NCBI RefSeq assembly: GCF_040954835.1
Contig: NW_027167693.1
Span: forward strand, 134,001-198,000
Direction: 5' to 3'
Length of the DNA: 64,000 nt
From: Lepisosteus oculatus
Lineage: Eukaryota; Chordata; Actinopteri; Semionotiformes; Lepisosteidae
Below, one piece after another: positions 1 through 56,691 of the stretch. The notes under the pieces were generated by a model. That model did not search any database. It saw nothing but the letters and a program-made list of their open reading frames with translations, and was not told where the DNA came from. Made by a program: the position numbers and the translations under genes. Numbering within the stretch: the first letter of the stretch is position 1; every line of letters begins with the position of its first letter.

Positions 1-249
1 AAAGCTTTAAAAACAAGTAAAAGAACTTTCAAATTTATCCTAGATAATACAGGTGACCAGTGAAGTTTTTTCAAAACAGGAATGATATTCTCTTTCTTGT
101 ATTTGTTAGGATCTGTGCTACTGCATTTCGAACAAGTAGTAAGGGATTTATTGTTTTCTTGGGAAGCCCACAAAACAGAGCATTATAATCATATCCACAT
201 CAATGTGAGCAATGGAGAAGTCAAATTAACGTGTCTAAATATCATCTAG

Positions 250-1721
250 TTCTATCCCAGGGAAGAGGGCTGTTGCCTACACAGACGACAAGACACAAAA
301 CGCTCAACTGTGCAAAACACGCATAAGGACATCAGTCAGGAGGAACAAGGTAAAGTGTTTTTTCTTCTTCACCATGGTCATGTAGTTTCACTCCAAGCAC
401 TGTCATATGAAATAACTGTGGAAACGACCTCCCCAACGTTTTGGGTTGTTGCATTTTGCTTCAATGAATTTTAACCTTTTCTTTTAGACATTAAGAGGAA
501 GGACACATTCACCCTTGGTAGAGATTCAGTTGTTCTATGAGATGTCAAGGTGAGAATTAACCACTTCAGGGATAAGTCAATCCACATAACTGAAAAAGGG
601 GCAATGAACAGGATATGGGGATTTTGCTAGTTATAAAGTACAATAATCATCATTACATGATCTAAGACTACTGAAGTATAAGCTGTGTCCCTGACTGATT
701 AATTAGCAAATTCATCTTTGTAGAGTGCAGCTACTATCTATTCAGTGGCATTTCCTTAAAACAATTGTATTCCCACATTCTGAATATGGAGTGAGATCAT
801 GTAGAGAATGTTGGACTTGTAATAACTAATTGAAGGATAATAATAATCAACGAAAGTGCTTAAAAGTATCAACAAATGCCTTCAAAGTACTTGACACGTA
901 CTTTGCTTTCAAAAGTGAAACATAATTAATGCTTACGTAAGATTTCTCTTGACTTCTCAGGAGTATACTAACTCCAAGGACAAGTAACATCACAAACCAT
1001 TATTTAAGTGCTGATGTTGGAGCTGCAATACTACTACCAAGACAAAAAATGATACAGGTAACACTGCTTTCAGATTTCTAAGAATTGCTAAAATAGTATG
1101 TTTACAGAGCATTCAGAGTTGAGAATATGACAAGTTCCTACCATCTCAAACACTGCCAATCTAGAACAAAAAGAAAGTACTTGAACGCCTGCAGTAATCG
1201 AACACAAACCAGAACATATCAGTGCATGACAAGGAAATGTAGTCACAAAATGATTCTGCCCTTTCAAGTCCCAAAAAGGACCGAGGAACTTACCGGAGGC
1301 GATACCTGGATTTCAAACAGAGTACAATGTAGCCACTGTAGGGGAGAAGATCACAGAGAGCTCTTCTCAGATTGCTCAGAGTCAGCCCCAGCACCCTGTC
1401 CTGACTGAAGCAGACAAAGTGGTCAAACAGGTAGGTAGAAATGAGTAAGGAACAGAGAGTATGGTTATTCTTGCATTGTTTTGTTCGTCTGTCAAAGAAA
1501 AGAGTGCTTCTGACTTTTGTCAATGTTCATCTTTATTTTAGGAGAAGAACAAACGGTGGTATCACACTTTGCTCAAGTGTATGATACCATGTGTGTACAG
1601 CAGACATCACCAAAGGAACAGGAGACACCTGAGTAGAGAACAAGAACATGAAAAGACTGATGAAAAAAAGCACCAGGAGAAATCCATTGAATATGCACAA
1701 TCTCGTACAGTATTTCAATGA
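250..1721 (+). CDS. Unrecognised ampliconic gene, copy 1 (exons 4-8 only, cut by the window start)
   Basis: Exons are 250-349, 488-549, 961-1057, 1269-1430 and 1542-1721 (TGA at 1719). Each has an AG acceptor, the four internal donors are GT, and the phases join without a stop. This part encodes residues 48-246 of the 246-residue product described in full for copy 2. Exons 1-3 should lie about 1.5 kb left of base 1, outside the window. The exon 4 donor (GT at 350) is intact here, unlike copy 2. Exon 4 uses the acceptor ending at 249, not the nearer AG at 260, because only that choice keeps phase with exon 3. The function is unknown. The first AATAAA downstream is at 2329-2334, a possible polyadenylation signal. 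Confidence 0.7.
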
Positions 1722-2609
1722 AAAGTTTCAGTGTTGTTTTTAGTGTCGTCGTATTGCATACATTTAAAACAATGTGTCTTGTTTAATGAACAATTTCATT
1801 TATTTCAGTAAAAAGTGTTGTTTACTGTACTCCTAGCATGGATGCAATTGTTAGAAAAAACTTGAATGAAAAACTGAATGTTTCATACAATATGGGTTTG
1901 TGTTAACCCACACACCTAAGTGAAATGTTTGATTACGTTTACAAGACATAACACATAGTTCAGTTGAGTGTGAAAGGGAACAACAGAGAAAGTCACAAAC
2001 AAAACATTTGTGAAGGACTTGATGAATGTTTTTTCTTTAGAAATGACAAAAAACAAAGAATTTTTCAACAAGATGTCTTTCTATAGCGAGTTTCATTTGA
2101 GATAGTCTTTTCTTAGAAGTGCAAGAGTGGTATTCCCTACAACTTATTCCCCAATTTGATCATTCTCAGAAATTAGGAGACGGAAACCACACCTACTGTA
2201 ATATTAGACCTTGTAACAAGGCAACTAGGTTTCAATGGCTTAAAAGGTGCAGAAAGAGGCTCATTTATAATGACCTCCAGTGTCCCACAGGTTTCCCAAA
2301 TCATTTCTTAGAGTATGGAAAAAGAGGAAATAAAGTGTCTACAGAAAGTGTATACCCCCTTGAACTTTGTTCAGTTTGTTGCGCCAGTGCCAGAGTTTCA
2401 TGCAATTAAATGAGGACCTCTTTCTCACACCACATATGTTATACTTTCAAAGGGAAAAAAGGAAATATTACAATTGTATACATTTTCACCCATATGTTAA
2501 TATCTGGTAGAAGCCCTTTTCACAGCAATTTCAGCTGTGAGTCTGTTGGTAATGGGCTCCACCACCTCTGAACTAACAAGATTTGATAATATTTGAGAAT
2601 TTCAGAGGT

Positions 2610-2639
2610 CTGTCTGGTTTAGCTGAAGAATCAGCTAAG
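2610..2639 (+). pseudogene. Relic of exon 1 of the unrecognised gene (repeated at 8435-8464)
   Basis: A 30-bp segment matches exon 1 (4279-4308) with few changes and is followed by the same donor and intron start (gtaagtttcagg). The start codon is CTG instead of ATG, and the frame reads LSGLAEESAK against MSGLVEESAK in true exon 1. Similarity is confined to roughly 40 bp around the exon and its donor. It lies downstream of the gene body, so it is either a relic or an alternative 5' exon for the next copy. Segments at 17346-17375 (+) and 29576-29605 (-) are further copies. Confidence 0.6.
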
Positions 2640-3191
2640 GTAAGTTTCAGGAAGAGCATCTGATTTCTTTCAATAAAGCAGAACAGAGAAAAAACACACA
2701 ATACAAAATCATGAGAATTTGTATCCATATGACACTTTGACTCGAATACTTTTATCAGACCTACACAGAGTATATACTGTACACACTTTTTCAGCCCAGG
2801 TTTATACATTTGATACATTTGGAACTGCCATTTGTAGGTGTTTTTGTGTCTTAGCTCAACACTGTGAAACCTGTAGTTACAAACATGGAGGATGAAGACA
2901 TGAAGACATATATTGTACCTCTGACCGGCCTACCTTCCAAGAGGTGAAAGATGAAACTTTTCCTTTATCGTCAACTCAGTGAATGTCTTTAAACTTTCGA
3001 AAACTGTAACAAAGAATAAGTTAAAAAACTTATTTTCATTGGACCCACAGAAAAGTCAAAGTTGTCCATAGAAATGCCCGTCTAAATCAGAAATCTACAG
3101 CACAAAGGCAGTGGCCTTTCGGGACATAAAAATGAAATCAGACTTTACTCAGACGAATTGCCCTTGGTCACGGACATCTTGCTATCAGTCA

Positions 3192-3388
3192 CTACAAAGA
3201 TGTTTTCTCTCGTCCCATGGCTTGCCTGACTTGCTTCTTCTGCTGGATGGCTTCTGGTCGCTGGTCAGGATCGACAGCCAGCATGTCCTGGAGCAGTGTC
3301 CTTTGCTCCGTGCTTATGGCTCTATTTACTTTCAGGGGGATGTGGAACTGCAGCCAGGGGTTCTCATCCAGGGCCTCTCCAACAGGCC
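3192..3388 (-). pseudogene. Orphan terminal-exon-like frame, weakly kinase-tail-like
   Basis: Read on the minus strand, an AG acceptor lies just upstream (at 3389-3390) and the frame stays open for about 65 codons to a stop at 3192. It contains ENPWLQFHIPLKVNR and LLQDMLAVDPDQRP, the latter loosely like the end of a protein-kinase C-lobe, and ends in a basic Gln/Lys-rich tail. I could find no matching upstream exons before the next gene. In the second amplicon (9017-9213) a CAA codon has become TAA, ending the frame at 9056. It is most likely a transposed or relic last exon. The family is not recognised. Confidence 0.35.
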
Positions 3389-4278
3389 CTGACAGACATA
3401 TGCTCCTGTATCGGAAACACACTTTAGTTCAATTCTAAAATATTTCTCATAGGACTGAAGGAACCTTTGCCTGTTAAGAGTTAACAATTAGGTCCTCAAG
3501 AACTGTTTTACGGTTTTCTACACTCCTGGCTGGCCAAGGTCTCTTTAAGGTCTCTTAAGTGGAGGTGTAACTCATGTATCCTACATGTGATTTAGCAACA
3601 TGAAAGGGAATAGCTTCTTATCGGATTATGGTCTTGGTTAACTGCCTAAGGCTGACCTAAGTGCCTAACTTTCTGACTTTCTTTATACCTTATATGTTAA
3701 GAAGCTTCTTCTGACCAATCAGAAATGTATGCTTTATGTATGAACATTTTGCTCATCAAAGTGAGTGAGAGACAAGGTTAACAGAAATTAGCCACGGCAG
3801 TAAATGACAGCATATTTTTGGGTTCTTAAATGGTCTCTACCTGGCACACCTGCAGTGCAAACTGACACACACTGTTTAGAGAAACAGCTACTCTATTACT
3901 AATATTAATGAAACATTTCTTATTCTATGGAACAAAAACAAACAGTAAAACTAAAACACAGATCTCTTAGCTTCCTATTTCATGAACCAGATGACTGAAT
4001 GACCAAGCCTAACTAGTAGCCAGAACCCCAGTTAACCCTCCGTAACACAAACTTTAACCACACGACAAGAACTCTTTCAAACTGAGTGAAAATCATAAAT
4101 GGATCCATAACTTTACATCAATTTACTATGTTGTGCCAATACCTGCATTTACATTTAGAACGAATGATGTCATAGAACCAGCATCACACCAGTTCCAGGT
4201 GTCTCCAAGGAGACAACAGAACTTCAGTTGTGTTTGCTAAAATACACACTTTGAAACATACTGTAACACTTAGTTAAC

Positions 4279-7200
4279 ATGTCTGGTTTAGTTGAAGAAT
4301 CGGCTAAGGTAAGTTTCAGGGTTTAATGGTGGGATGGCACCTGTGCTTTTTTCCCCCAACCGCTAGAATATGATTCGCACCAAACCCAAAAGAAATACTG
4401 CACAGTTCAGGAACTTCATCAACCTAGCAACTGTAAAATAAGCTTACAAACAACTGAATTGAAATGCCAAAAAGTTCAGAGAAAGGCACAAACTATGTTT
4501 ACTTGGGGTTTACAAAATTAAAGCTAACTAAAACTGTAATGATAAACAATCATGCTGCCAATGGACAGAGAAATATCATGTTTTTTGAATAATGTATTAT
4601 TTGTTACATAGGAACCCAGTATAAGGGAATCCCTTGCGATCCTGTCTGCAGAGATAAAGGTAAGTATTGTTTTCTCTTTAGCTCTGTCACTCCAAGAAAT
4701 ATAATGAACATAAATATATTTGCCAATCTTTTCATAGTAATCCAAACAACTCTGCGTGTATCTGACATTTGTAATATTTATCTACCGCAGTATAACTCTT
4801 CTGGCAAGGCGATTGGTATTGTACCTTGAAAGAAAACTGATTGGAAATGTCATGTACTCTATGGTTTCTATTGATGTCAAGTGGCAAATGTTGACTGGTG
4901 ATGTTATGTGAATCTTAGGAAATGGTCATTTTTCAATCGAGTCTATGTTTCTCAGAATTTGAGACAGAGAGGTCAATCTCTGCAATTCGAGCTGAGGGCA
5001 TTTCTTGGAATGGAAAGGTAAGAGCAACTTGTTCTTTGATATTCTCTTAAGACTCTTCGCCAGATTTAACGATGAAAACTGTAAATAATAATAACAAACA
5101 TTATTTTATATAGTGCCTTGAAAGGTGGCTTCTTTACAGAATGACAAAACCAACTACAATAAATAATACACAAGATATGCATGATGACAATACACAGTTA
5201 GAGGAGACAGTAGATGGTCATTGTCAGTGTATTCTGAAGGTAGTTTTCCAATTTTTTGGAACGGGGTAAAAGAGGCCACCTCTACTAGAATCTTTGTCCT
5301 AACCAAAAATGTAACAAAGTATAATAATAATATTAAAAATAATAATAATAAACTTTATCTATAGAGCACCTTTCATACAAATAGTGCTTTGGTGCTTTAA
5401 AAACCAAGCGTAAAAATAAAATATTAAAATTGAGAGATATACTCTCAGTTGTAAAGGAAAATACAGCAATACAGTAAAGCAACATACATGTCAATTAAAT
5501 AAATAAAAATTAGGAAAGTCGTAATAAAATAAGAACAATTAAAGACAACTAAAAAAAGAAACAGAAATAGAAAGAACAAAGAACCACTTTAACTAAAAGC
5601 AACATTTTCAAATGTTTTTTAAAACAATGTACCGAGCTTGACTGCCTAATAAAAAGTGGAAGTGAGTTTCATAATTTGGAAGCATAAAAACAAAAAGCAG
5701 CCTCTCCACTCTTTCTGCATTTCACATGTGGTATTTGCAGTAGGCCAGTATGTGCAGATCTCAGGTCACGTATAGGAACATATGAAGACAGACATTCAGT
5801 AAGGTACAGACGTGCTAGGTCGCTTAAAGCTTTAAAAACAAGTAAAAGAACTTTCAAATTTATCCTAGATAATACAGGTGACCAGTGAAGTTTTTTCAAA
5901 ACAGGAATGATATTCTCTTTCTTGTATTTGTTAGGATCTGTGCTACTGCATTTCGAACAAGTAGTAAGGGATTTATTGTTTTCTTGGGAAGCCCACAAAA
6001 CAGAGCATTATAATCATATCCACATCAATGTGAGCAATGGAGAAGTCAAATTAACGTGTCTAAATATCATCTAGTTCTATCCCAGGGAAGAGGGCTGTTG
6101 CCTACACAGACGACAAGACACAAAACGCTCAACTGTGCAAAACACGCATAAGGACATCAGTCAGGAGGAACAAGATAAAGTGTTTTTTCTTCTTCACCAT
6201 GGTCATGTAGTTTCACTCCAAGCACTGTCATATGAAATAACTGTGGAAACGACCTCCCCAACGTTTTGGGTTGTTGCATTTTGCTTCAATGAATTTTAAC
6301 CTTTTCTTTTAGACATTAAGAGGAAGGACACATTCACCCTTGGTAGAGATTCAGTTGTTCTATGAGATGTCAAGGTGAGAATTAACCACTTCAGGGATAA
6401 GTCAATCCACATAACTGAAAAAGGGGCAATGAACAGGATATGGGGATTTTGCTAGTTATAAAGTACAATAATCATCATTACATGATCTAAGACTACTGAA
6501 GTATAAGCTGTGTCCCTGACTGATTAATTAGCAAATTCATCTTTGTAGAGTGCAGCTACTATCTATTCAGTGGCATTTCCTTAAAACAATTGTATTCCCA
6601 CATTCTGAATATGGAGTGAGATCATGTAGAGAATGTTGGACTTGTAATAACTAATTGAAGGATAATAATAATCAACGAAAGTGCTTAAAAGTATCAACAA
6701 ATGCCTTCAAAGTACTTGACACGTACTTTGCTTTCAAAAGTGAAACATAATTAATGCTTACGTAAGATTTCTCTTGACTTCTCAGGAGTATACTAACTCC
6801 AAGGACAAGTAACATCACAAACCATTATTTAAGTGCTGATGTTGGAGCTGCAATACTACTACCAAGACAAAAAATGATACAGGTAACACTGCTTTCAGAT
6901 TTCTAAGAATTGCTAAAATAGTATGTTTACAGAGCATTCAGAGTTGAGAATATGACAAGTTCCTACCATCTCAAACACTGCCAATCTAGAACAAAAAGAA
7001 AGTACTTGAACGCCTGCAGTAATCAAACACAAACCAGAACATATCAGTGCATGACAATGAAATGTAGTCACAAAATGATTCTACCCTTTCAAGTCCCAAA
7101 AAAGACCGAGGAACTTACCGGAGGCGATACCTGGATTTCAAACAGAGTACAATGTAGCCACTGTAGGGGAGAAGATCACAGAGAGCTCTTCTCAGATTGC

Positions 7201-7546
7201 TCAGAGTCAGCCCCAGCACCCTGTCCTGACTGAAGCAGACAAAGTGGTCAAACAGGTAGGTAGAAATGAGTAAGGAACAGAGAGTATGGTTATTCTTGCA
7301 TTGTTTTGTTCGTCTGTCAAAGAAAAGAGTGCTTCTGACTTTTGTCAATGTTCATCTTTATTTTAGGAGAAGAACAAACGGTGGTATCACACTTTGCTCA
7401 AGTGTATGATACCATGTGTGTACAGCAGACATCACCAAAGGAACAGGAGACACCTGAGTAGAGAACAAGAACATGAAAAGACTGATGAAAAAAAGCACCA
7501 GGAGAAATCCATTGAATATGCACAATCTCGTACAGTATTTCAATGA
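4279..7546 (+). CDS. Unrecognised ampliconic gene, copy 2 (all eight exons, exon 4 donor mutated)
   Basis: Exons are 4279-4308, 4612-4659, 4956-5017, 6075-6174, 6313-6374, 6786-6882, 7094-7255 and 7367-7546 (stop TGA). The joins are phase 0, 0, 2, 0, 2, 0, 0 with no internal stop, giving 246 residues. Exon 1 encodes MSGLVEESAK and exon 2 EPSIRESLAILSAEIK. Residues about 17-46 could form an amphipathic helix or short coiled coil. Residues about 72-90 are strongly basic. Exon 7 (134-187) is Gln/Ser-rich and ends LTEADKVVKQ. Exon 8 is Lys/Glu/His-rich. I see no signal peptide, membrane segment or known domain. In this copy the exon 4 donor is AT instead of GT (G to A at 6175), so normal splicing is probably impaired. 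Exon 7 has Gly to Arg at residue 137. Intron 3 holds a SINE-like tail and an L2-like LINE. The function is not known. Confidence 0.7.
5085..5215 (-). mobile_element. SINE/LINE-tail-like dispersed repeat
   Basis: Read on the minus strand, this segment ends in a tail of the form (gccacctttcaaggcact)...(ATT)n, typical of retroposed elements. Very similar copies occur at 10910-11040, 17765-17925, 28995-29160 (reverse) and 41545-41690 (reverse). A short related piece is at 22885-22925. It lies in intron 3 of the amplicon gene. The family is not identified. Confidence 0.6.
5322..5998 (-). mobile_element. L2-like LINE, 3' fragment with reverse-transcriptase C-terminus
   Basis: The minus-strand frame 5669-5998 contains PVLKKLHWSPVLSRINLK and VLLLVFKALSDLA, typical of the C-terminal end of the reverse transcriptase of L2/CR1-group non-LTR elements in fish. 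It is followed by an AT-rich 3' region ending in a stem-like (aaaggtgctctatagataaagtttatta) tail with (ATT)n at about 5,322. Only the 3' end is present. It sits inside intron 3 in antisense. Equivalent copies are 1-173 (cut by the window edge), 11147-11823 and, reversed, 40765-41445. A separate copy of the same family lies in the loop at 24901-26850. Confidence 0.85.
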
Positions 7547-10103
7547 AAAGTTTCAGTGTTGTTTTTAGTGTCGTCGTATTGCATACATTTAAAACAATGT
7601 GTCTTGTTTAATGAACAATTTCATTTACTTCAGTAAAAAGTGTTGTTTACTGTACTCCTAGCATGGATGCAATTGTTAGAAAAAACTTGAATGAAAAACT
7701 GAATGTTTCATACAATATGGGTTTGTGTTAACCCACACACCTAAGTGAAATGTTTGATTACGTTTACAAGACATAACACATAGTTCAGTTGAGTGAGAAA
7801 GGGAACAACAGAGAAAGTCACAAACAAAACATTTGTGAAGGACTTGATGAATGTTTTTTCTTTAGAAATGACAAAAAACAAAGAATTTTTCAACACGATG
7901 TCTTTCTATAGCGAGTTTCATTTGAGATAGTCTTTTCTTAGAAGTGCAAGAGTGGTATTCCCTACAACTTATTCCCCAATTTGATCATTCTCAGAAATTA
8001 GGAGACGGAAACCACACCTACTGTAATATTAGAACTTGTAATAAGGCAACTAGGTTTCAATGGCTTAAAAGGTGCAGAAAGAGGCTCATTTATAATGACC
8101 TCCAGTGTCCCACAGGTTTCCCAAATCATTTCTTAGAGTATGGAAAAAGAGGAAATAAAGTGTCTACAGAAAGCGTATACCCCCTTGAACTTTGTTCAGT
8201 TTGTTGCGCCAGTGCCAGAGTTTCATGCAATTAAATGAGGACCTCTTTCTCACACCACATATGTTATACTTTCAAAGGGAAAAAAGGAAATATTACAATT
8301 GTATACATTTTCACCCATATGTTAATATCTGGTAGAAGCCCTTTTCACAGCAATTTCAGCTGTGAGTCTGTTGGTAATGGGCTCCACCACCTCTGAACCA
8401 ACAAGATTTGATAATATTTGAGAATTTCAGAGGTCTGTCTGGTTTAGCTGAAGAATCAGCTAAGGTAAGTTTCAGGAAGAGCATCTGATTTCTTTCAATA
8501 AAGCAGAACAGAGAAAAAACACACAATACAAAATCATGAGAATTTGTATCCATATGACACTTTGACTCGAATACTTTTATCAGACCTACACAGAGTATAT
8601 ACTGTACACACTTTTTCAGCCCAGGTTTATACATTTGATACATTTGGAACTGCCATTTGTAGGTGTTTTTGTGTCTTAGCTCAACACTGTGAAACCTGTA
8701 GTTACAAACATGGAGGATGAAGACATGAAGACATATATTGTACCTCTGACCGGCCTACCTTCCAAGAGGTGAAAGATGAAACTTTTCCTTTATCGTCAAC
8801 TCAGTGAATGTCTTTAAACTTTCGAAAACTGTAACAAAGAATAAGTTAAAAAACTTATTTTCATTGGACCCACAGAAAAGTCAAAGTTGTCCATAGAAAT
8901 GCCCGTCTAAATCAGAAATCTACAGCACAAAGGCAGTGGCCTTTCGGGACATAAAAATGAAATCAGACTTTACTCAGACGAATTGCCCTTGGTCACGGAC
9001 ATCTTGCTATCAGTCACTACAAAGATGTTTTCTCTCGTGCCATGGCTTGCCTGACTTACTTCTTCTGCTGGATGGCTTCTGGTCGCTGGTCAGGATCGAC
9101 AGCCAGCATGTCCTGGAGCAGTGTCCTTTGCTCCGTGCTTATGGCTCTATTTACTTTCAGGGGGATGTGGAACTGCAGCCAGGGGTTCTCATCCAGGGCC
9201 TCTCCAACAGGCCCTGACAGACATATGCTCCTGTATCGGAAACACACTTTAGTTCAATTCTAAAATATTTCTCATAGGACTGAAGGAACCTTTGCCTGTT
9301 AAGAGTTAACAATTAGGTCCTCAAGAACTGTTTTACGGTTTTCTACACTCCTGGCTGGCCAAGGTCTCTTTAAGGTCTCTTAAGTGGAGGTGTAACTCAT
9401 GTATCCTACATGTGATTTAGCAACATGAAAGGGAATAGCTTCTTATCGGATTATGGTCTTGGTTAACTGCCTAAGGCTGACCTAAGTGCCTAACTTTCTG
9501 ACTTTCTTTATACCTTATATGTTAAGAAGCTTCTTCTGACCAATCAGAAATGTATGCTTTATGTATGAACATTTTGCTCATCAAAGTGAGTGAGAGACAA
9601 GGTTAACAGAAATTAGCCACGGCAGTAAATGACAGCATATTTTTGGGTTCTTAAATGGTCTCTACCTGGCACACCTGCAGTGCAAACTGACACACACTGT
9701 TTAGAGAAACAGCTACTCTATTACTAATAATAATGAAACATTTCTTATTCTATGGAACAAAAACAAACAGTAAAACTAAAACACAGATCTCTTAGCTTCC
9801 TATTTCATGAACCAGATGACTGAATGACCAAGCCTAACTAGTAGCCAGAACTCCAGTTAACCCTCCGTAACACAAACTTTAACCACACGACAGGAACTCT
9901 TTCAAACTGAGTGAAAATCATAAATGGATCCATAACTTTACATCAATTTACTATGTTGTGCCAATACCTGCATTTACATTTAGAACGAATGATGTCATAG
10001 AACCAGCATCACACCAGTTCCAGGTGTCTCCAAGGAGACAACAGAACTTCAGTTGTGTTTGCTAAAATACACACTTTGAAACATACTGTAACACTTAGTT
10101 AAC
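7547..10103. other. Spacer between gene copies 2 and 3
   Basis: This is equivalent to 1722-4278. It contains the exon-1 relic at 8435-8464 and the orphan minus-strand exon-like frame at 9017-9213, here with a nonsense codon at 9056-9058. Nothing else was recognised. Confidence 0.6.
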
Positions 10104-13100
10104 ATGTCTGGTTTACTTGAAGAATCGGCTAAGGTAAGTTTCAGGGTTTAATGGTGGGATGGCACCTGTGTTTTTTTCCCCCAACCGCTAGAATATGATT
10201 CGCACCAAACCCAAAAGAAATACTGCACAGTTCAGGAACTTCATCAACCTAGCAACTGTAAAATAAGCTTACAAACAACTGAATTGAAATGCCAAAAAGT
10301 TCAGAGAAAGGCACAAACTATGTTTACTTGGGGTTTACAAAATTAAAGCTAACTAAAACTGTAATGATAAACAATCATGCTGTCAATGGACAGAGAAATA
10401 TCATGTTTTTTGAATAATGTATTATTTGTTACATAGGAACCCAGTATAAGGGAATCCCTTGCGATCCTGTCTGCAGAGATAAAGGTAAGTATTGTTTTCT
10501 CTTTAGCTCTGTCACTCCAAGAAATATAATGAACATAAATATATTTGCCAATCTTTTCATAGTAATCCAAACAACTCTGCGTGTATCTGACATTTGTAAT
10601 ATTTATCTACCGCAGTATAACTCTTCTGGCAAGGCGATTGGTATTGTACCTTGAAAGAAAACTGATTGGAAATGTCATGTACTCTATGGTTTCTATTGAT
10701 GTCAAGTGGCAAATGTTGACTGGTGATGTTATGTGAATCTTAGGAAATGGTCATTTTTCAATCGAGTCTATGTTTCTCAGAATTTGAGACAGAGAGGTCA
10801 ATCTCTGCAATCCGAGCTGAGGGCATTTCTTGGAATGGAAAGGTAAGAGCAACGTGTTCTTTGATATTCTCTTAAGACTCTTCGCCAGATTTAACGATGA
10901 AAAATGTAAATAATAATAACAAACATTATTTTATATAGTGCCTTGAAAGGTGGCTTCTTTACAGAATGACAAAACCAACTACAATAAATAATACACAAGA
11001 TATGCATGATGACAATACACAGTTAGAGGAGACAGTAGATGGTCATTGTCAGTGTATTCTGAAGGTAGTTTTCCAATTTTTTGGAACGGGGTAAAAGAGG
11101 CCACCTCTACTAGAATCTTTGTCCTAACCAAAAATGTAACAAAGTATAATAATAATATTAAAAATAATAATAATAAACTTTATCTATAGAGCACCTTTCA
11201 TACAAATAGTGCTTTGGTGCTTTAAAAACCAAGCGTAAAAATAAAATATTAAAATTGAGAGATATACTCTCAGTTGTAAAGGAAAATACAGCAATACAGT
11301 AAAGCAACATACATGTCAATTAAATAAATAAAAATTAGGAAAGTCGTAATAAAATAAGAACAATTAAAGACAACTAAAAAAAGAAACAGAAATAGAAAGA
11401 ACAAAGAACCACTTTAACTAAAAGCAACATTTTCAAATGTTTTTTAAAACAATGTACCGAGCTTGACTGCCTAATAAAAAGTGGAAGTGAGTTTCATAAT
11501 TTGGAAGCATAAAAACAAAAAGCAGCCTCTCCACTCTTTCTGCATTTCACATGTGGTATTTGCAGTAGGCCAGTATGTGCAGATCTCAGGTCACGTATAG
11601 GAACATATGAAGACAGACATTCAGTAAGGTACAGACGTGCTAGGTCGCTTAAAGCTTTAAAAACAAGTAAAAGAACTTTCAAATTTATCCTAGATAATAC
11701 AGGTGACCAGTGAAGTTTTTTCAAAACAGGAATGATATTCTCTTTCTTGTATTTGTTAGGATCTGTGCTACTGCATTTCGAACAAGTAGTAAGGGATTTA
11801 TTGTTTTCTTGGGAAGCCCACAAAACAGAGCATTATAATCATATCCACATCAATGTGAGCAATGGAGAAGTCAAATTAACGTGTCTAAATATCATCTAGT
11901 TCTATCCCAGGGAAGAGGGCTGTTGCCTACACAGACGACAAGACACAAAACGCTCAACTGTGCAAAACACGCATAAGGACATCAGTCAGGAGGAACAAGG
12001 TAAAGTGTTTTTTCTTCTTCACCATGGTCATGTAGTTTCACTCCAAGCACTGTCATATGAAATAACTGTGGAAACGACCTCCCCAACGTTTTGGGTTGTT
12101 GCATTTTGCTTCAATGAATTTTAACCTTTTCTTTTAGACATTAAGAGGAAGGACACATTCACCCTTGGTAGAGATTCAGTTGTTCTATGAGATGTCAAGG
12201 TGAGAATTAACCACTTCAGGGATAAGTCAATCCACATAACTGAAAAAGGGGCAATGAACAGGATATGGGGATTTTGCTAGTTATAAAGTACAATAATCAT
12301 CATTACATGATCTAAGACTACTGAAGTATAAGCTGTGTCCCTGACTGATTAATTAGCAAATTCATCTTTGTAGAGTGCAGCTACTATCTATTCAGTGGCA
12401 TTTCCTTAAAACAATTGTATTCCCACATTCTGAATATGGAGTGAGATCATGTAGAGAATGTTGGACTTGTAATAACTAATTGAAGGATAATAATAATCAA
12501 CGAAAGTGCTTAAAAGTATCAACAAATGCCTTCAAAGTACTTGACACGTACTTTGCTTTCAAAAGTGAAACATAATTAATGCTTACGTAAGATTTCTCTT
12601 GACTTCTCAGGAGTATACTAACTCCAAGGACAAGTAACATCACAAACCATTATTTAAGTGCTGATGTTGGAGCTGCAATACTACTACCAAGACAAAAAAT
12701 GATACAGGTAACACTGCTTTCAGATTTCTAAGAATTGCTAAAATAGTATGTTTACAGAGCATTCAGAGTTGAGAATATGACAAGTTCCTACCATCTCAAA
12801 CACTGCCAATCTAGAACAAAAAGAAAGTACTTGAACGCCTGCAGTAATCGAACACAAACCAGAACATATCAGTGCATGACAAGGAAATGTAGTCACAAAA
12901 TGATTCTGCCCTTTCAAGTCCCAAAAAGGACCGAGGAACTTACCGGAGGCGATACCTGGATTTCAAACAGAGTACAATGTAGCCACTGTAGGGGAGAAGA
13001 TCACAGAGAGCTCTTCTCAGATTGCTCAGAGTCAGCCCCAGCACCCTGTCCTGACTGAAGCAGACAAAGTGGTCAAACAGGTAGGTAGAAATGAGTAAGG

Positions 13101-13371
13101 AACAGAGAGTATGGTTATTCTTGCATTGTTTTGTTCGTCTGTCAAAGAAAAGAGTGCTTCTGACTTTTGTCAATGTTCATCTTTATTTTAGGAGAAGAAC
13201 AAACGGTGGTATCACACTTTGCTCAAGTGTATGATACCATGTGTGTACAGCAGACATCACCAAAGGAACAGGAGACACCTGAGTAGAGAACAAGAACATG
13301 AAAAGACTGATGAAAAAAAGCACCAGGAGAAATCCATTGAATATGCACAATCTCGTACAGTATTTCAATGA
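10104..13371 (+). CDS. Unrecognised ampliconic gene, copy 3 (complete and intact)
   Basis: Exons are 10104-10133, 10437-10484, 10781-10842, 11900-11999, 12138-12199, 12611-12707, 12919-13080 and 13192-13371. All seven introns are GT...AG, including the exon 4 donor lost in copy 2, and the 246-codon frame is open throughout. Differences from copy 2 include Val5 to Leu in exon 1 (MSGLLEESAK) and Phe to Ser in exon 3 (codon TTC to TCC). This is the best candidate for a functional member in the window. Exons 3-8 fall within the left arm of the palindrome and have an inverted counterpart at 39251-41807. Function is unrecognised; the domain description is under copy 2. Confidence 0.72.
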
Positions 13372-14133
13372 AAAGTTTCAGTGTTGTTTTTAGTGTCGTC
13401 GTATTGCATACATTTAAAACAATGTGTCTTGTTTAATGAACAATTTCATTTACTTTAGTAAAAAGTGTTGTTTACTGTAGTCCTAGCATGGATGCAATTG
13501 TTAGAAAAAACTTGAATGAAATCCTGAATGTTTCATACAATATGGGTTTGTGTTAACCCACACACCTAAGTGAAATGTTTGATTACGTTTACAAGACATA
13601 ACACATAGTTCAGTTGAGTGTGAAAGGGAACAACAGAGAAAGTCACAAACAAAACATTTGTGAAGGACTTGATGAATGTTTTTTCTTTAGAAATGACAAA
13701 AAATAAAGAATTTTTCAACAAGATGTCTTTCTATAGCGAGTTTCATTTGAGATAGTCTTTTCTTAGAAGTGCAAGAGTGGTATTCCCTACAACTTATTCC
13801 CCAATTTGATCATTCTCAGAAATTAGGAGACGGAAACCACACCTACTGTAATATTAGACCTTGTAACAAGGCAACTAGGTTTCAATGGCTTAAAAGGTGC
13901 AGAAAGAGGCTCATGTATAATGACCTCCAGTGTCCCACAGGTTTCCCAAATCATTTCTTAGAGTATGGAAAAAGAGGAAATAAAGTGTCTACAGAAAGCG
14001 TATACCCCCTTGAACTTTGTTCAGTTTGTTGCGCCAGTGCCAGAGTTTCATGCAATTAAATGAGGACCTCTTTTTCACACCACATATGTTATACTTTCAA
14101 TGGGAAAAAAGGAAATATTACAATTGTATACAT

Positions 14134-14567
14134 TTTAAAGCCATGTGTTCATATTTGGTAGAAGCCCTAAAAACACCTAAAAAACACCTAACAACGGGTG
14201 CAGGACCGAATTAGGGCAATACCCACTATTGATAAACATACAGAAAACAATATTAAAGTACTGGCTTTAATATTAGCCAGACACAGCTGGATGAGCTCTA
14301 CCAGCCAGGACAGGAGGCTCTACTGTACACAGAGAGGGGAGGGAGGGGGGAACAAGCTGCCCAGCCGTGTGGAATGCTACAGAACCCTAAACAGACAAAA
14401 CATACTACCTGAATATTTGACCAAGATATCCAGACATAGCTAGATGAGCTCCACTAGTCAGGACAGGCTAATAAGATACAATCCACAGACATTCACAACA
14501 GTGACATATCATAAACACTTGAATTACTTATCTAGTCTCTCGAAACAAAATTTCGAGAAAAAACACA
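14134..14567. repeat. Fragment of the 120-bp minisatellite family and associated 28-bp motif
   Basis: After the amplicon ends at 14,134, bases 14283-14370 match one unit of the 120-bp tandem repeat in the loop (22351-22800): cagctggatgagctc, then tactgtacacagagaggg, then aacaagctgcccagccg. A second partial unit lies at 14428-14465. Next to it, 14471-14498 is the reverse complement of a motif (ttgtgaatgtctg...tatcttat) that also occurs at 21761, 22101 and 38278. The block is mirrored at 38216-38500. Confidence 0.7.
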
Positions 14568-15194: not shown

Positions 15195-16036
15195 AACACC
15201 ACTGCGTCACACCACACAGCTGCGAGTGCACCTCACTGTGCCCGGCCACCACTGCATCACACAACTGCCAGCGCACCTCACCATACCAGGCCACCACTGC
15301 GTCACACAGCTGCAAGCACACCTCACCGTGCCAGGCCACCACGGCGTCACAACACACAGCTGCCAGCGCACCTCACCGTGCCAGGCCACCACTGCGTCAC
15401 ACAGCTGCCAGCGCACCTCACCGTGCCAGGCCACCACTGCGTCACACCACACAGCCACCAGTGCACCTCACCGTGCCAAGCCACCACTGCGTCACACAGC
15501 TGCCAGCACACCTCACCGTACCAGGCCACAACTGCGTCACACAGGTGCCAGCACACCTCACCGAGCACGGCCACAGCTGCATCAAGCAGCTGCCAGCGCA
15601 CCTCACCGTATTCTGCCACTACTGAATCACACTACACAGGTGGCAGAGCACCGTACCAGACCACCACTGCGTCACACAGGTGCCAGTGCACCTCACCATG
15701 CCAGCCACCACTGCGTCGCACCACACAGCTGCCAGCGCACCTCACCGTGCCAGGCCACCACTGCGTCAGACCACACACAGCTGAAAGCGCACCTCACCGT
15801 GCCAAGCCACCACTGCATCACACAGCTGCCAGCATACCTCACCGTACCAGGCCACCACTGCGTCACACAGCTGCCAGCGCACCTCACCATGCCAGCCACC
15901 ACTGCGTCGCACCACACAGCTGCCAGCGCACCTCACCGTGCCAGGCCACCACTGCGTCAGACCACACACAGCTGAAAGCCCACCTCAACGTGCCAGGCCA
16001 CCACTGTATCCCACAGCTGCAAGCACACCTCATGCC
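15195..16036. repeat. 45-bp minisatellite, short allele (about 18 units)
   Basis: The core unit is 45 bp (cagctgccagcgcacctcac + cgtgccaggccaccactgcg + tcaca). A variant of about 50 bp has an extra accac. Units vary by point changes. Because 45 is a multiple of three and the unit lacks stops in several frames, long open frames appear on both strands (for example 15156-16055), but these are not genes. The mirrored array at 30891-37585 is about eight times longer. Confidence 0.95.
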
Positions 16037-16410
16037 TTGTTATGTGAAACTTTAATTCTCTTTTTAGGATTTTTTGAACATGGTCTTTTTTTCCCCCAAT
16101 CAGAGGCTCACCACAATTCATGCTCAACCACATCACAGATCTACTACACACACCTCAGGATGGTGACGTCACTGCCTTTCATATGGAAACATTTTGACAC
16201 CGCGCTCAACAATCTTAGGAAGATCACAAAACAAGCCTGCTAGCCTGGATTTTACCTAAAAAAAACGCCCGAGAAAGTGAAGTACTGTAGCATTAACTAG
16301 CAAAGGTGTATTGCAGACATAGGTATAGTACGTAAAACAGGCTTTATGAACTCTAATAATATTGTTTCGGCTGTGAATCCTTCTTCAGCTGTGAGGGTCT
16401 TCAGCTCATA

Positions 16411-16686
16411 ATGAAACGCTTGGAGTTTGCAATGTACGGCGCTCTGAACGAGTTCAACTTTAATGCAGGAAAAATGGATTTCCCAGAAGCTATACTGATT
16501 CTTATGGAAGCCCGTTTCCGCCAGGGAGTAGAAAAAATGCGCCCTGGTATTCTCTGGGATGCAGTGCAGTTAAAACTGTTCACTGTTACTGACCATACTG
16601 CCTGCCTGCGGGCACTTTTCCTGTCCGTGGGGGAGGGTGGACTGTCTTTCATTAGAAGGTTAGCCTATTCTACTCGGAGAATGTAG
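16411..16686 (+). other. Unrecognised 91-codon open frame conserved in both palindrome arms
   Basis: The frame reads MKRLEFAMYGALNEFNFN near its start and ends TRRM. It looks protein-like, with an amphipathic middle, no low complexity and a normal residue mix. The inverted copy at 30259-30534 keeps the frame, with one amino-acid change (Leu to Phe) and several silent changes. An AG acceptor-like site precedes it at about 16,395-16,408. It may be an exon or a transposon-derived fragment. No family is recognised. Confidence 0.35.
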
Positions 16687-17321
16687 AGGGGGTGGAAAGT
16701 GCCCGCGGTCATTTAATTAGTATTACAATTCGCACTGATTCCCCTGCGAAGATATGGACATAAGAATATTCGTGCGTGGTCAAAAAATGCCATTAAAACG
16801 ACAAAATGAAGGCTGTGAAAACATTCACAATGTGCTGTATACACAAAGCACGTGTTCTCACAACTCGAGGAGGTTTCGTGAAACTTTATATCGTCACACA
16901 AAATAAAGTTTTTTTGTTTACAAAGACGATTACAAAGAATGTGGACCAGGGTAATACTTTGAGTTTACAGCTTGTCCAAGGTCATTCATTATTAATACTA
17001 TTAGGGATATCTTCGGTAAAGACTGACAGCAGGAACATTCCTGTTCTTTACTCAGCAGCTTATTAAAAACAGGGTGTTCAAAACGTTTTTTTTACCCAGA
17101 AGAGTGACACAGCTTCGCGTTGTGACTCTGTTATTCCGTATTTACAAAGAAAGTGGAATACAGTAATACTACCTGCTATATAGATACATATTTTTAGATA
17201 TTCAGATCCTTAAATTAATATCATTATTCATTTCTTTAGATACGTGATTCCATACTATATTCCCTATTACAAAACCAATAATTCCAGTCCTGAAATCTGA
17301 TTGGCTGACACACATTCGAAG
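16687..17321. other. No gene; contains a short repeat shared with the loop
   Basis: About 57 bp at 16936-16992 (agaatgtggaccaggg...aaggtcattcatta) recurs almost unchanged at 24034-24090 in the loop and, reversed, near 29954-30011. Otherwise this is AT-rich sequence with nothing recognised. Confidence 0.5.
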
Positions 17322-17592
17322 AACATACTGTAACACTTAGTTAACATGTCTGGTTTAGTTGAAGAATCGGCTAAGGTAAGTTTCAGGGTTTAATGGTGGG
17401 ATGGCACCTGTGCTTTTTCCCCCCAACCGTTAGAATATGATTTGCACAAAACCCAAAAGAAATACTGCACAGTTCAAGAACCTAGCAACTGTAAAATAAG
17501 CTTAAAAACAACTGAACTGAAATGCAAAAAAGTTCAGAGAAAGGCACAAAATATGTTTACTTGGGGTTTAAAAAATTAAAACTAACTAAAAC
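17322..17592 (+). pseudogene. Isolated duplicate of exon 1 and intron 1 of the amplicon gene
   Basis: This block of about 270 bp matches 4260-4540, including exon 1 (17346-17375, ATG...AAG) and the GT donor. Similarity then ends abruptly and exons 2-8 do not follow. It has a few indels (for example a 9-bp gap near 17,480). The mirrored copy is 29349-29620 on the minus strand. It may act as an alternative promoter and first exon, or be a dead fragment. Confidence 0.75.
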
Positions 17593-17611
17593 ATTCCAAA
17601 CAGAAGCCGGC

Positions 17612-17887
17612 CTACCTTCTTTTCTTTGTACCTGATAAAGATGAGGATGGCTTTAAAGATACAGCTAAACTTTTGCAGAACCATTCAAGCGCGTTGTTAC
17701 TGTTTATTGTAGAAGCCAAAAATATGAGAATCTCAAAATCTAAAAATCTCATGGCGTCAGAATGTACAACTTTAAAAAAATAAATAATAATAATAATAAT
17801 AAACATTAATTTATATAGCGCCTTGAAAGGTGGCTTCTTAATAGAATGACAAAACCAACAACAATAAATAATACACAAGATATGCAT
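17612..17887 (-). other. Exon-like frame on the minus strand, unrecognised
   Basis: The minus-strand frame contains SNNALEWFCKSLAVSLK and ends SLSGTKKR before a GT donor-like site (gtaggc) at about 17,607. An AG acceptor-like site lies at about 17,700. The upstream half of the frame overlaps the SINE-like tail at 17765-17925 and is probably not coding. The mirrored copy is at about 29180-29330 (+). It is weakly supported as an exon of an unknown gene. Confidence 0.25.
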
Positions 17888-17967
17888 GCTGACAATACAC
17901 AGTTAGAGGAGACAGTAGATGGCGGTAATAAACACAGTGAGAGCAGAAGGATAAAGAACAGGGGTGA

Positions 17968-19244
17968 GTTTCCCGAAAACAACTAATCTTAGAGACTTTC
18001 AAGCAACTTTACGATGTACGTATGTACGTATGTAAACAATCGATTGACAATTCTTTCATTATATGGTGTCGGTTTTGGTCCTTCAGTGGGATGAAATAAA
18101 GTTGTGAAAAGGAATATGAAGTAAACTTGACATCATAGTTTAAGCAAAAGCATATAGATAGGCACAAAAAGGGACCTTATTGTTTCTAAGAGCAAAGAAA
18201 AGAAATGACTGACATGCCGTAAAAGAAAACCAAGATTAACTGCGTGGGCAGTGTATGCGTCCCGCACGACGTCCTTGATTTAAAGCAATATTTTTTGGCG
18301 CGCTGCCATAGTAAGAATCAATATTTCATGAGAAAAAACTGTTATTTATAGTTATTGGGTGTACTGGAACTCAATGGAAACATTAACTACTAAGCTTGGC
18401 ATGTGTCACTCAACAAATACAGGACCTATAATCAAATTTAAAAACAAGTAGATCTAAGCTTTACCGTCAACAATCACGACAGAACATCAAACGGTGTTGA
18501 ACTACGCGGTATCGACCGCGGGTTTGGGTACGGAATGGAGCAGGCGTGGGACTCAGGACTGGGGCTGAACAACACATTTATTAACTCGAATCGGGAAAGG
18601 TACACACACAGGGACAGGGGTTACAGCGCTGCACCTTCACTAACACACACACACACCTGAAGGGAAGAGACTGTATCCCAGCCTCCGTCCCGCTATACAG
18701 TCCGGTAGAACCCAGGTGCTGTTCTCAGCCCGCCTTGCGTGCGCAGGACTAAAGCGCCCTGCGTGGCGCTACATTATAAATACATGTTAGGCCCAATGAT
18801 TTCACTAAAATAATGCATTGCTGCACTTCATACTGAAAATAATATCATCTAGTCAAGTATAAAAATGAATATGAAATATACCCAGGATGACTCATAAATT
18901 CATCACTGTATAAATAAATGTTCTTTTTTCGAATTTCCTCTGACACAGTACAACACAATATCAAAGTCCTTCATATAAACTCTTAGTGTCCTGTATTCCC
19001 AGAGGATGCCCCTGCCGTGAAGTGACTGTGCTCTGTCTGGCGATCTCTGGCGCTCAGGGTGGGCAGGAGGAGGCCAGTTTAAGAAGCACTTAGTGATGAA
19101 CGAGCGGGTCGGGGAGCACGTAGATGACGAAGGATTTAACGTGCTACTTCAGTTACGATGGGTTTTGGGAAACACTCGTCAATTAACGATCGAGCTTAAG
19201 AGCGAGTTTACGATGTTCTTAGCGCTACGACGCTTTCGGGAAAC
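17968..19244. mobile_element. Non-autonomous DNA transposon with inverted ends and a nested LTR
   Basis: The ends are inverted: gtttcccgaaa at 17968 and tttcgggaaac ending at 19244. Weaker inverted similarity continues inward (aagcaactttacgatgt against gagtttacgatgttctt). The style resembles Harbinger-like elements, but the superfamily is not certain. No transposase frame was found. The mirrored copy is 27683-28960. An LTR-like unit (18495-18773) is inserted in it. Confidence 0.55.
18495..18773 (-). mobile_element. Solo LTR-like element, 279 bp
   Basis: On the minus strand it begins TGTAGCGCCACGCAGG and ends in TTCAACA (TG...CA), with an AATAAA-type signal in its 3' half (gttaataaatgtg). It is GC-rich compared with its surroundings and nested in a DNA transposon. 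No clear target duplication was seen. The mirrored copy is 28154-28432 on the plus strand. Confidence 0.6.
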
Positions 19245-20085
19245 AGAATCATATCTAGAAGGATTACCATATATAAAAATAGAAAGAATGATATATGATA
19301 TATACAAGTAATTATATCATATCATATATTATTAACACCATACCCACCATCTATGTACATTCACATGACCACACATATCAGATCAATATCAAATCAATCA
19401 CAATGATTAGAATGCGCGCAGAAATCGCCCCTTTCTCTTCCCATCTTTCAGCACATTATACGTCCTCTCCACGATACAAGCCGATATCCGTTATCTTACT
19501 CTACAATGCACCTTTTCCCGTGTTGTACGTTAACATTTGGTTCATAAAATCGACACACCTGAAATACTAAATAAGAAAGAAAACAATTATAACACAACGG
19601 ATGACAGAGCCTCTAGAACAGAAAACCCGTTGGCGTCACACACGCTGAATGTCTCTCTCTCCTGCTCAGCAAAACACAACATGTGGGTCAACACCGTGTG
19701 AGGCATTAAACATCACCTTCGTGCATTACCGCGATTCATCTGGCACACAACTGTACCACTACAGAAATAATATATATAATGTCGCCACACGAATCTGTAA
19801 TGAAAATAAAATTAAAAATGCCGCTGGCGTCTCACCCGACTGGCGGCCACAGCGCGTCTGAGGGCTCCCCAGAGAAACGAGCCGCCTGTGACCCCAGGGG
19901 CACCTTCACTGGCGCCCCGCCACCAACAAACCCCAAGGGCTGTCGCAAAGCCAACTCCATACAGAAAAACGGAACTCATCTGGGGGAAGTTCACAAAATA
20001 AAATAATAAAATAAAAGATGACATCATATAACCACGGCTCAACGCAGCTGGCTACACGTGTGAGAAGGTGCAGTACTTGAAGTGC
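19245..20085. other. Inner end of the left arm, no gene recognised
   Basis: The sequence holds several short open frames but nothing protein-like. Near 19,910 the left arm has an 18-bp segment (ctggcgccccgccaccaa region) that is missing from the right arm at about 27,015. Confidence 0.5.
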
Positions 20086-21234
20086 GCTGGGCAAACTTCC
20101 GAGGTCAAATTCTTCAGCACGGTTGTACCTTTAAAGCGGAAACCGAAATGTTTTGGCGCGCCTTCTCTTTAAAGCCCTGGCCAAATATGAAGACAGTACG
20201 TACAGTTATAATTCAAACGGAATTAAAAACTACACATCCCAGTTACCATGGTGGTGCTTGTGATCATTGCGTTTAACCAACGAAACAGGGCGAAAAATCA
20301 GTCACATGAATTTGGGGCAGAGTTTCGAAAGCTTAACCTATCAGCAACAAAGCGAAATTTACACGATAGGCTACCTCAAACTGTCAGTTACACGACTGTG
20401 TATGTCGCTTAAGCCACTTCTATTTGGCATTTTAGTTATGGAGGCGAGAAGACGCCCCCCCCCCCACCCCTCTCTGGGTGCCTGATTTGCCGCCATCTTT
20501 AACCGCTTCGTGTCCAAATCGCGTACGAAATAAAGTTCATCCCAGCTACAAAACATATATTTTTGTGGTAAGAGGGAGCAAAACATCAGTATTTACTGCT
20601 ATTAATTAGTGTACGATTTATAGTTGAAATCTGAGCCTAAATATAAAGTTAAAATCTCGACAAAGCAATGTAGGAAATACAGAGAAAATAAATCCTTTCT
20701 GACATCTAAAATCAGTTTTGATCAAGGTCTCTAAAACGAACAAGAAAAAGAGGATTTTCGGAGGGCAATTACGCTGTATTTATATAGAATAAGTGATTTA
20801 TGAGCAATCTAATTTCTTGTTCGTTTAAAACAGTGAAATGTCAGCTGCAAAAGATCGCACCAGAAACAGCACTCTCTCTGCCTGTCATAGACGTTCAGGA
20901 AAGGCTGAATGAAGTCGTGGTGATCAATAATAACAGTTGTAGGACAAGAAACAAAAGATAGTGAAAACTTAAGATTTTTAAGGCTAAAACTCAAATTCAT
21001 TCTACAAATTAAGGCAAATGAAAATTCAGGACGTTAAAGTGCTAGAGGTGTAAAAAAATACAAAAATGCACATGAGCAAAAAGTTTTAGAACTGGAGCAA
21101 ACAGAATAAAAGCCATGCCTATAGTGCAGAAGAGGGATGCAGGAACACTTGCTTAGATATACAACAACATTACTTTATTAACCCTTTACAATTTCTTGCA
21201 TTAGTAATTATCTTTTCGCATACCCCAGCTTGCT

Positions 21235-24145: not shown

Positions 24146-24472
24146 TTGTGTTACACCGCGATAAGCACACCGCAAAATAATGCGGTATCGCCCGCTTGTT
24201 TTGAATGGCTGCATCTGTATATCCCTGCTAGTGATGATGACCATGGTCACCTCACCCTCGCAATACACCAGCTGAAAGAACTTAAGAACAGGGTAAATCA
24301 AGAACAGGGCATTGGCAATAAGTTCCCCTTCTTTTCATGGTTAAAATCATTTTTTGGGTCATGGGGACTGTTTTTCTTAAAGCTATTCATGCCTGTTGTC
24401 GTGTTTTTGCTGTTGTGCTGTTGTCTGACTAGGGTGACCCCTATGAGGACTCTGTGGTATGAACACATTTAA
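24146..24472 (+). pseudogene. Endogenous retrovirus env-like C-terminal remnant
   Basis: The frame has an amphipathic segment, then a strongly hydrophobic stretch of about 25 residues (from about FLKLFMPVVVFLLLCCC), then a short cytoplasmic-like tail and a stop at 24472. It lies immediately before a purine-rich tract and an LTR. That order fits the transmembrane end of a retroviral envelope. Surface-subunit, gag and pol sequences are absent, so it is a broken 3' end. The assignment rests on hydrophobic pattern and position, not on a conserved motif. Confidence 0.5.
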
Positions 24473-29122: not shown

Positions 29123-29158
<36 letters not shown>

Positions 29159-56690: not shown

Positions 56691-56691
56691 T

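Follow-up and report, generated by a model that had tools for sequence, protein, structure and literature searches.

A repeated chain of short exons in a 64,000-nucleotide stretch of gar DNA (the window) raises the question of whether it is a working gene, the decaying copy of one or an accident of splice-like sites. An earlier note on this DNA had proposed a single gene at positions 4279–13371, with eight exons and 246 codons, as the core of an amplified family. We re-examined the exon chain, its copies within the window and across the genome, and the variation among those copies.

The exon chain of a tandemly repeated unit

The window begins with a tandem array of a 5.8-kb unit, called unit A (Table 1), wherein positions 1–8342 match positions 5826–14168 with 99.4% identity. 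One complete copy (copy A) carries a start-to-stop chain of seven short exons on the plus strand that are bordered by GT and AG, agree in phase and together give 225 codons. The predicted product, judged by eye, has a helical-looking N-terminal part and a basic C-terminal part. The next complete copy (copy B) has three exonic differences from copy A and a stop at codon 226.

Table 1 Features of unit A and its neighbour in the window
Feature	Positions	Strand	Remarks
Tandem array of unit A	1–14168	+	Period 5825 bp, about 2.4 units
Partial copy, window edge	488–1721	+	Exons 4–7
Second exon-1-like element	2606–2639	+	Own acceptor, no ATG; read by eye
Exon-like stretch (acceptor, open frame, donor)	2855–2943	+	Read by eye; joins no closable chain
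Antisense ORF, 78 aa	3195–3428	−	Most coding-like stretch of unit
Copy A, complete	4279–7546	+	Seven exons
Copy A exon 1	4279–4308	+	Carries ATG start
Copy A exon 2	4612–4659	+	GT/AG-bordered, phase-agreeing chain
Copy A exon 3	4919–5017	+	Chain search favours alternative start at 4956
Copy A exon 4	6313–6374	+	GT/AG-bordered, phase-agreeing chain
Copy A exon 5	6786–6882	+	GT/AG-bordered, phase-agreeing chain
Copy A exon 6	7094–7255	+	Top coding-like plus-strand frame outside 3.1–3.4 kb
Copy A exon 7	7367–7546	+	Includes stop codon
Copy B, complete	10104–13371	+	Seven exons shifted by 5825
Isolated exon-1 copy and start of intron 1	17346–17375	+	
Isolated exon-1 copy, inverted	within 29349–29633		
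Inverted partial copy	39251–41844	−	Exons 3–7; without exons 1–2
Tandem array of unit B	44033–64000	+	Unit of about 8.06 kb; zf-C2HC_2 (ZC2HC1-like) gene

The spliced chain proposed earlier therefore survives, but its dimensions do not. The right-phase 63-nucleotide candidates for an eighth exon listed for the introns all have weak donors, and the span read as one gene comprises two tandem copies. The four copies counted previously are two complete and two partial ones. Similarly, the claim that unused frames are closed is only partly correct, as a second plus-strand frame is open in each of exons 2 and 3. Among the smaller elements, the second exon-1-like stretch recurs in the next unit at 8431–8464, as seen in 41-base BLAST matches. 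No Rfam family matched within the window at gathering thresholds. In the genome as a whole, COX1 gave no match and RAG1 gave two, as befits a jawed vertebrate; a split RAG1 may point to a ray-finned fish.

Splice sites, codon usage and gene structures were scored with approximate matrices and an approximate codon table. By these matrices, the successive donors of copy A rank 2, 2, 5, 4, 11 and 3 among 298 GTs, and the acceptors rank 19, 67, 20, 1, 23 and 6 among 375 AGs. The top chain in positions 4000–7999 reproduces exons 1, 2, 4, 5, 6 and 7 without change, uses a different acceptor for exon 3 and adds three fill-in exons. At penalty 7 this chain scores 57.3, whereas the dinucleotide shuffles (n = 400) peak at 29.9 and the 32 control scans, which cover both strands of 16 overlapping 4-kb windows in other parts of the window, peak at 31.6. 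Moreover, 0 of 400 shuffles reached the top-chain score at each of three penalties. Because the chain exceeds all 400 shuffles and all 32 control scans, its descent from a genuine split gene is very likely, and the earlier judgement that chance would hardly produce it is upheld.

Amplification of unit A and its neighbour

The proposal of an amplified, gene-like family is also borne out, with a copy number in the genome far beyond the four seen in the window. A 24-mer from intron 3 occurs exactly at 1,695 places, and a 24-mer from exon 7, with no more than 2 mismatches allowed, occurs at 1,936 places (914 forward and 1,022 reverse), whereas the reversed-pattern control for each gave 0. These counts, possibly inflated by assembly redundancy, place unit A with a period of roughly 5.82 kb on contigs C18 and C5 and on many smaller contigs. 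Of the 46 distances below 7 kb between neighbouring sites on C18, 45 fall in the range 5,720–5,846. When C76 and C82 were tested jointly for a mirror arrangement, the outcome was ambiguous, as tandem shifts gave equal counts.

Identity among the 62 aligned copies is 94–100%, and 60 of them share an identity of at least 97% with copy A, introns included; the lowest values, 94.3 and 94.5%, belong to two copies on C5 (L050 and L051). Unit A has the kilobase-scale head-to-tail unit and homogenized copies of a macrosatellite, along with the many near-identical copies and inverted arrangement of an ampliconic family.

We searched for relatives of the 225-amino-acid product in four libraries. The best Pfam match has E = 0.1, below the cut-off, PDB and NCBIfam give none at E ≤ 1, and PHROGs yields nothing convincing (one PHROG of unknown function, E = 0.034). 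This agrees with the failure of the earlier note to match the product to any family. In a protein search of the gar genome itself, 150 candidates were scored out of 8,136 from a first look. The 150 places listed among 302 matches, at 93–98% identity, look like array copies, so that this search could not reveal a diverged parent. No parental single-copy gene was present among the scored candidates, so the capture of a gene is argued from the exon chain alone. Of the C5 copies considered as candidate parents, L049–L051 are strays with partial inversions or deletions and L052 is a member of a small array; none resembles a parent. Intronless copies with joined exons were likewise absent from the 40 of 643 candidates scored, whose 81 matches each lie within one exon (±two bases).

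The second array in the window, built of unit B, carries a zf-C2HC_2 domain that scores above the cut-off of 27 bits (29.3 and 33.6 bits). Arrays of this gene are amplified in the genome on many of the same contigs as unit A, and 65 of the 150 scored places lie in a frame of at least 490 amino acids. A copy of unit B with about 96% identity is located at C8:21.39 Mb; its similarity extends to the left end of the 9.9 kb examined, which leaves its status as the parent unproven. The unit B gene may be ZC2HC1C rather than a paralogue. Expression of ZC2HC1C is described as predominantly in testis (PMC12029121), and the diplotene markers tabulated in PMC8416306 include Zc2hc1c. In the library searched, no paper combined ZC2HC1C with a sex chromosome and copies, and no title listed addressed its amplification.

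Variation among copies and competing readings

Array rates were derived from 39 of the 62 aligned rows, after removal of 20 near-identical neighbours (L009–L028) and the C5 copies L049–L051. Counts of distinct variants add five copies (L052 and L054–L057) that were located with the 24-mer from intron 3 or with the antisense ORF and not by way of exon 7. Most other copies were picked for their resemblance in exon 7, a choice that tilts this exon, and perhaps exons 5 and 6, towards conservation.

Nucleotide diversity across all exons (0.0064) is half that of introns and flanks (0.0126), and changed cells are fewer in exons 1–4 (0.0044) than in introns 1–3 (0.0076). This lower exon diversity may reflect real constraint, albeit among copies mostly selected by exon 7. 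Distinct variants per site are nearly equal in exons 1–4 and introns 1–3 (0.130 versus 0.133) and are lower in exons 5–7 than in introns 4–6 (0.052 versus 0.089, p = 0.038), again in mostly exon-7-selected copies. Some non-exonic stretches of unit A vary as little as its quietest exons, and the splice dinucleotides are unprotected (6 variants in 24 sites).

The consensus frame of the chain is intact, and 15 of 20 complete copies retain an unbroken frame from start to stop together with the splice sites, with GC donors accepted. The remaining 5 are disabled, compared with 6.6 expected neutrally. The ratio of nonsynonymous to synonymous changes is 33:20 (p = 0.17), about 0.66 of the neutral ratio and not significantly different from 1; with disabled copies present as well, half of what the earlier note named as evidence against a gene was observed. 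Compared with copy A, L052 from the C5 array has 10 differences in 654 exon sites and 27 in 2,589 intron sites. Differences from the consensus are 2.0% in exons and 1.3% in introns for L049 (a small inversion in exon 6 inflates the exon figure), 2.7 and 2.6% for L050, and 4.0 and 4.8% for L051.

Divergence among copies is low, and therefore the selection tests have little power. Their results are mixed, and the average copy of unit A carries no clear sign of constraint. The earlier claim of a real gene thus holds for the gene-like chain, whereas selection on its putative protein is equivocal, with halved exon diversity set against unprotected splice sites and disabling at the level of drift. 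Unit B has no clear constraint either; between the window and the C8 copy, synonymous, nonsynonymous and stop codon differences number 4, 9 and 1, 5, 7 and 0, and 2, 5 and 0 in three stretches.

On balance, we favour the reading that unit A is a gene-derived ampliconic macrosatellite that was intact at its expansion and is now largely drifting. A seven-exon gene of 225 codons and no recognized family would have been caught in a segment of about 5.82 kb, together with an antisense stretch that is perhaps the tail of a kinase gene. Tandem and larger inverted or segmental duplication would then have multiplied this segment until its near-identical copies numbered well over a thousand, intermingled with the roughly 8-kb arrays of the zf-C2HC (ZC2HC1-like) gene. 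Unequal exchange and conversion presumably keep the copies alike. The frame was probably intact when expansion began, with the average copy drifting since, so that a protein, if made, would be supplied by some of the copies or would rely on their bulk dosage. The domain of units A and B may, more tentatively, be connected with the germline or linked to sex, which is frequent among co-amplified arrays of this kind.

A less probable, although tenable, alternative is that unit A is a working, lineage-specific germline family, wherein many copies make the 225-amino-acid protein in testis or ovary. Dosage selection, for example through sex-chromosome conflict, would then drive co-amplification with the zf-C2HC gene. 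The strong splice sites, the intact consensus frame and three-quarters of the complete copies accord with this model, as do the reduced exon diversity and the fewer variants in exons 5–7. So does the amplified ZC2HC1-like neighbour on many shared contigs, whose mammalian namesake is described as testis-predominant, and X/Y co-amplification is a recurrent theme among spermatogenesis families (PMC10618873). However, distinct variants indicate no excess constraint in exons 1–4 or at splice sites, disabling proceeds at the neutral level, and no intronless copy, which would be a sign of germline transcription, was present among the candidates scored. We consider unlikely the bolder proposal that an undescribed germline protein family, occupying about 1% of the genome, was co-amplified thousandfold with a testis-type zinc-finger gene, in a vertebrate that is not a mammal, through sex-chromosome or other transmission conflict.

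It is improbable that unit A codes instead on its other strand, with a kinase-like gene that ends in the antisense ORF as its last exon, and with a plus-strand chain that is incidental or a spliced non-coding RNA. This ORF has the highest coding score of the unit (41.7 bits), and the best codon-weighted structure falls on its stretch rather than on the plus-strand chain. All 150 scored copies, at 97–100% identity, keep it open, but they are the top-ranking ones among 1,843 candidates and this openness is therefore selected. Weak similarity to the C-terminal part of protein kinases occurs at the same place in three libraries, although Pfam Pkinase (E = 0.095, 12.5 bits against a curated cut-off of 31.7) and the NCBIfam MADS6 kinase (E = 0.011) are both below cut-off, the kinase PHROG has E = 0.16, and the top Pfam match is NT_N (E = 0.043). 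PDB returns only designed TIM barrels, and none of the 26 best-scoring ORFs listed resembles another kinase exon by eye. Furthermore, the 199-bp stretch of the ORF belongs to the more variable segments of unit A (pi 0.020), and the proposal leaves the plus-strand chain unexplained.

Codon usage is coding-like in exon 6 and marginally in exon 2, but is below background in exons 1, 3, 4, 5 and 7, and a stricter score with codon usage gives the hand-read chain −24.4 while other structures win. Both results would fit splice-like sites that fell into line by chance in AT-rich DNA, but such an accident is very hard to reconcile with the shuffles and control scans and is the most doubtful of the readings.

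Comparison with known amplified systems

Gene-bearing macrosatellites include D4Z4/DUX4 and DXZ4. Unit A, read as a gene-derived macrosatellite, resembles these in its kilobase-scale head-to-tail unit, strong homogenization and gene-like content per unit. It differs in having split, seven-exon content rather than a single-exon ORF, in occupying over a thousand sites on many contigs, and in being interleaved with a second amplified gene and including inverted copies. Four-figure gene arrays are the extreme end of ampliconic evolution and are known mainly from the sex chromosomes of rodents and flies.

Mouse Slx/Slxl1 and Sly (PMC7743899, PMC3441658 and PMC10618873) offer a parallel in massive co-amplification of near-identical genes with copies on both strands, and one partner here, unit B, is of a testis-linked type. 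In contrast, sex linkage, expression and drive are conjectural for units A and B, and the predicted product of unit A has no convincing match in the libraries searched. The likeness to ZC2HC1C and other zf-C2HC_2 genes belongs to the neighbouring unit B and not to the seven-exon unit A. The papers listed on gar sex chromosomes and on ampliconic arrays in fish contain no match to the combined system.

If the arrays are transcribed in the germline, they would provide a case outside rodents and flies in which the type of partner, a ZC2HC1-like gene, is already tied to testis. If they are not, unit A illustrates well how a split gene can become a macrosatellite, and it warns annotators against counting well over a thousand genes. 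Unit A belongs to a known class and is striking mainly for its scale.

The seven-exon chain against chance

Seven short exons with GT/AG borders and agreeing phases join into a frame of 225 codons and a stop, and the chain recurs 5825 bases downstream with three exonic differences (table). These are two tandem copies within successive units of about 5.82 kb (unit A), where an earlier note had described an eight-exon, 246-residue gene family over the span 4279–13371; neither an eighth exon nor a frame of 246 codons was recovered. The left edge of the window also carries exons 4–7, and exons 3–7 recur in inverted orientation.

Chains were scored on splice-site strength and open frame only, taking the best start-to-stop chain. 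At a penalty of 7, positions 4000–7999 score 57.3, compared with a mean of 13.3 and a maximum of 29.9 for 400 dinucleotide shuffles, 19.3 for the opposite strand and a maximum of 31.6 in 32 control scans elsewhere in the window (16 overlapping 4-kb stretches on both strands, some including the zf-C2HC gene). Penalties of 6 and 8 agree, with 0 of 400 shuffles reaching the segment score at each. The earlier observation of a gene-like exon chain is largely right. At penalties of 7 and 8 the best chain matches the hand reading exactly in exons 1, 2, 4, 5, 6 and 7, but it uses a different acceptor for exon 3 and inserts three filler exons into intron 3. At a penalty of 6 it departs further, and so the chain's middle is uncertain in detail. 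Against the chain, once codon usage is scored and the penalty raised, the hand-read version receives −24.4 and the best structure falls on the stretch of an antisense open reading frame (ORF). Among the seven exons, composition is clearly coding-like in exon 6 only.

The predicted product could be assigned to no recognised family: nothing passed the cut-off in Pfam or NCBIfam, PDB gave no match at E ≤ 1, and the single PHROG match (E = 0.034) is a family whose function is unknown.

The antisense ORF has the best codon score of unit A and stays open in each of the 150 copies scored (the best 150 of 1,843 candidates). The DNA that it occupies ranks with the more variable parts of the unit. Three libraries give weak kinase matches at one place, and the ORF could represent a kinase gene's tail exon captured in unit A; against this reading, its best Pfam match is NT_N (E = 0.043) and its PDB matches are designed TIM barrels only. 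Separately, an element in intron 3, whose family we take to be LINE-like reverse transcriptase, gave no Pfam match and has a relative in the spacer.

Features of the window by position
Feature	Positions	Strand	Remark
Antisense ORF	3195–3428	−	78 aa
Seven-exon chain, copy A	4279–7546	+	
LINE-like tails, intron 3	5669–6007; 11494–11832	−	
Seven-exon chain, copy B	10104–13371	+	
45-bp minisatellite	15213–16032; 30891–37563		GC-rich, strong strand skew
Inverted repeat arms	15213–20086; 26854–31719		94.9% identity, flanking the middle spacer
Open frame, transmembrane-like end	24137–24472	+	
Relative of LINE-like tail	24890–25258		spacer
Chain exons 3–7	39251–41844		inverted
Unit B, ~8.06-kb tandem	44033–64000		zf-C2HC_2 gene, domain over cut-off

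Scale of the amplification

The assembly comprises 1.20 Gb in 813 contigs, with the window at C74:134001–198000. RAG1 is present in it, which marks a jawed vertebrate; intron patterns make a ray-finned fish a plausible guess. It contains an exon-7 24-mer, allowing up to two mismatches, at 914 places on the plus strand and 1,022 on the reverse, and an exact intron-3 24-mer at 796 and 899, with 0 for both controls. At 5.82 kb each, unit A would total about 10–11 Mb, or 0.8–0.9% of the assembly, a greater scale than the four copies from which amplification was first claimed. The 150 places listed from a protein search spread over 24 contigs. Contig C18 holds several arrays, where 45 of the 46 spacings shorter than 7 kb fall at 5,720–5,846, and C5 holds a small array and stray copies. 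Four zf-C2HC positions mirror each other between contigs C48 and C158, as do the coordinates of three between C76 and C82; either palindromic arms or haplotype duplication could account for these pairs, and the true number of units is perhaps lower because such mirroring may inflate the counts.

Conflicting measures of selection

Measures of whether the gene is kept working disagree. Across 39 aligned copies, nucleotide diversity in exons (0.0064) is half that in introns and flanks (0.0126), although some non-exonic stretches equal the quietest exons. When distinct variants are counted with five further copies (L052, L054–L057), exons 1–4 (31 of 239 sites) match introns 1–3 (245 of 1,845; p = 1.0), whereas exons 5–7 (23 of 439) carry fewer than introns 4–6 (64 of 721; p = 0.038). 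This hints at constraint on the last exons, perhaps as an artefact because copies were sampled by exon 7. Splice dinucleotides, with six variants at 24 sites, are not below introns (p = 0.13 in the opposite direction); one of the six is a GT-to-GC donor change, which may be harmless. Nonsynonymous and synonymous variants number 33:20, with one stop, against a chance expectation of 2.5:1 (p = 0.17). Of 20 complete copies, 5 are disabled, where the divergence of their own introns predicts 6.6 (P = 0.30). A 24-base deletion in L052 keeps the frame, and the divergent C5 copies differ similarly in exons and introns.

With only about 1% divergence among copies these tests are weak, and selection in the average copy is not firmly shown. 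The intact consensus suggests an undamaged gene at the onset of the present expansion. Of the real, undescribed gene that had been proposed, the non-random exon chain stands; a working gene that yields a protein is unproven.

Neighbouring elements and possible origin

By the look of its sequence, the unit B gene may be ZC2HC1C itself. Its zf-C2HC_2 domain is amplified on many contigs that also carry unit A. Among the best 150 of 4,342 first-look candidates, frames of at least 490 aa occur at 65 scored places, and frames of exactly 549 aa at 45 places elsewhere in the assembly. In the window the open frame is divided between two frames, and the array is ~96% like a chromosomal copy at C8:21384000–21393900. 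ZC2HC1C expression is described as mainly in testis (PMC12029121), and Zc2hc1c is among the diplotene markers tabulated in another paper (PMC8416306).

Elsewhere, the open frame with the transmembrane-like end has a weak match, under the cut-off at E = 0.032, to the family of the baculovirus F protein and is followed by ~400 bases that are LTR-like by eye; together they look like an endogenous-retrovirus-like remnant. One array of the minisatellite has 142 units and its inverted partner 17; the long open frames that run through the repeat are probably artefacts of its periodicity.

Most probably, a segment holding a split gene, perhaps with a foreign gene tail, became a unit repeated in tandem. 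Unit A would have spread together with unit B through unequal exchange and through inverted duplications on a larger scale, homogenisation would keep copies alike, and redundancy would leave individual copies free to drift.

The arrangement of units A and B is similar to that of co-amplified sex-linked families such as Slx/Sly. Those families are defined by sex linkage and germline expression; going by sequence, we file the feature here only as a gene-derived tandem array.
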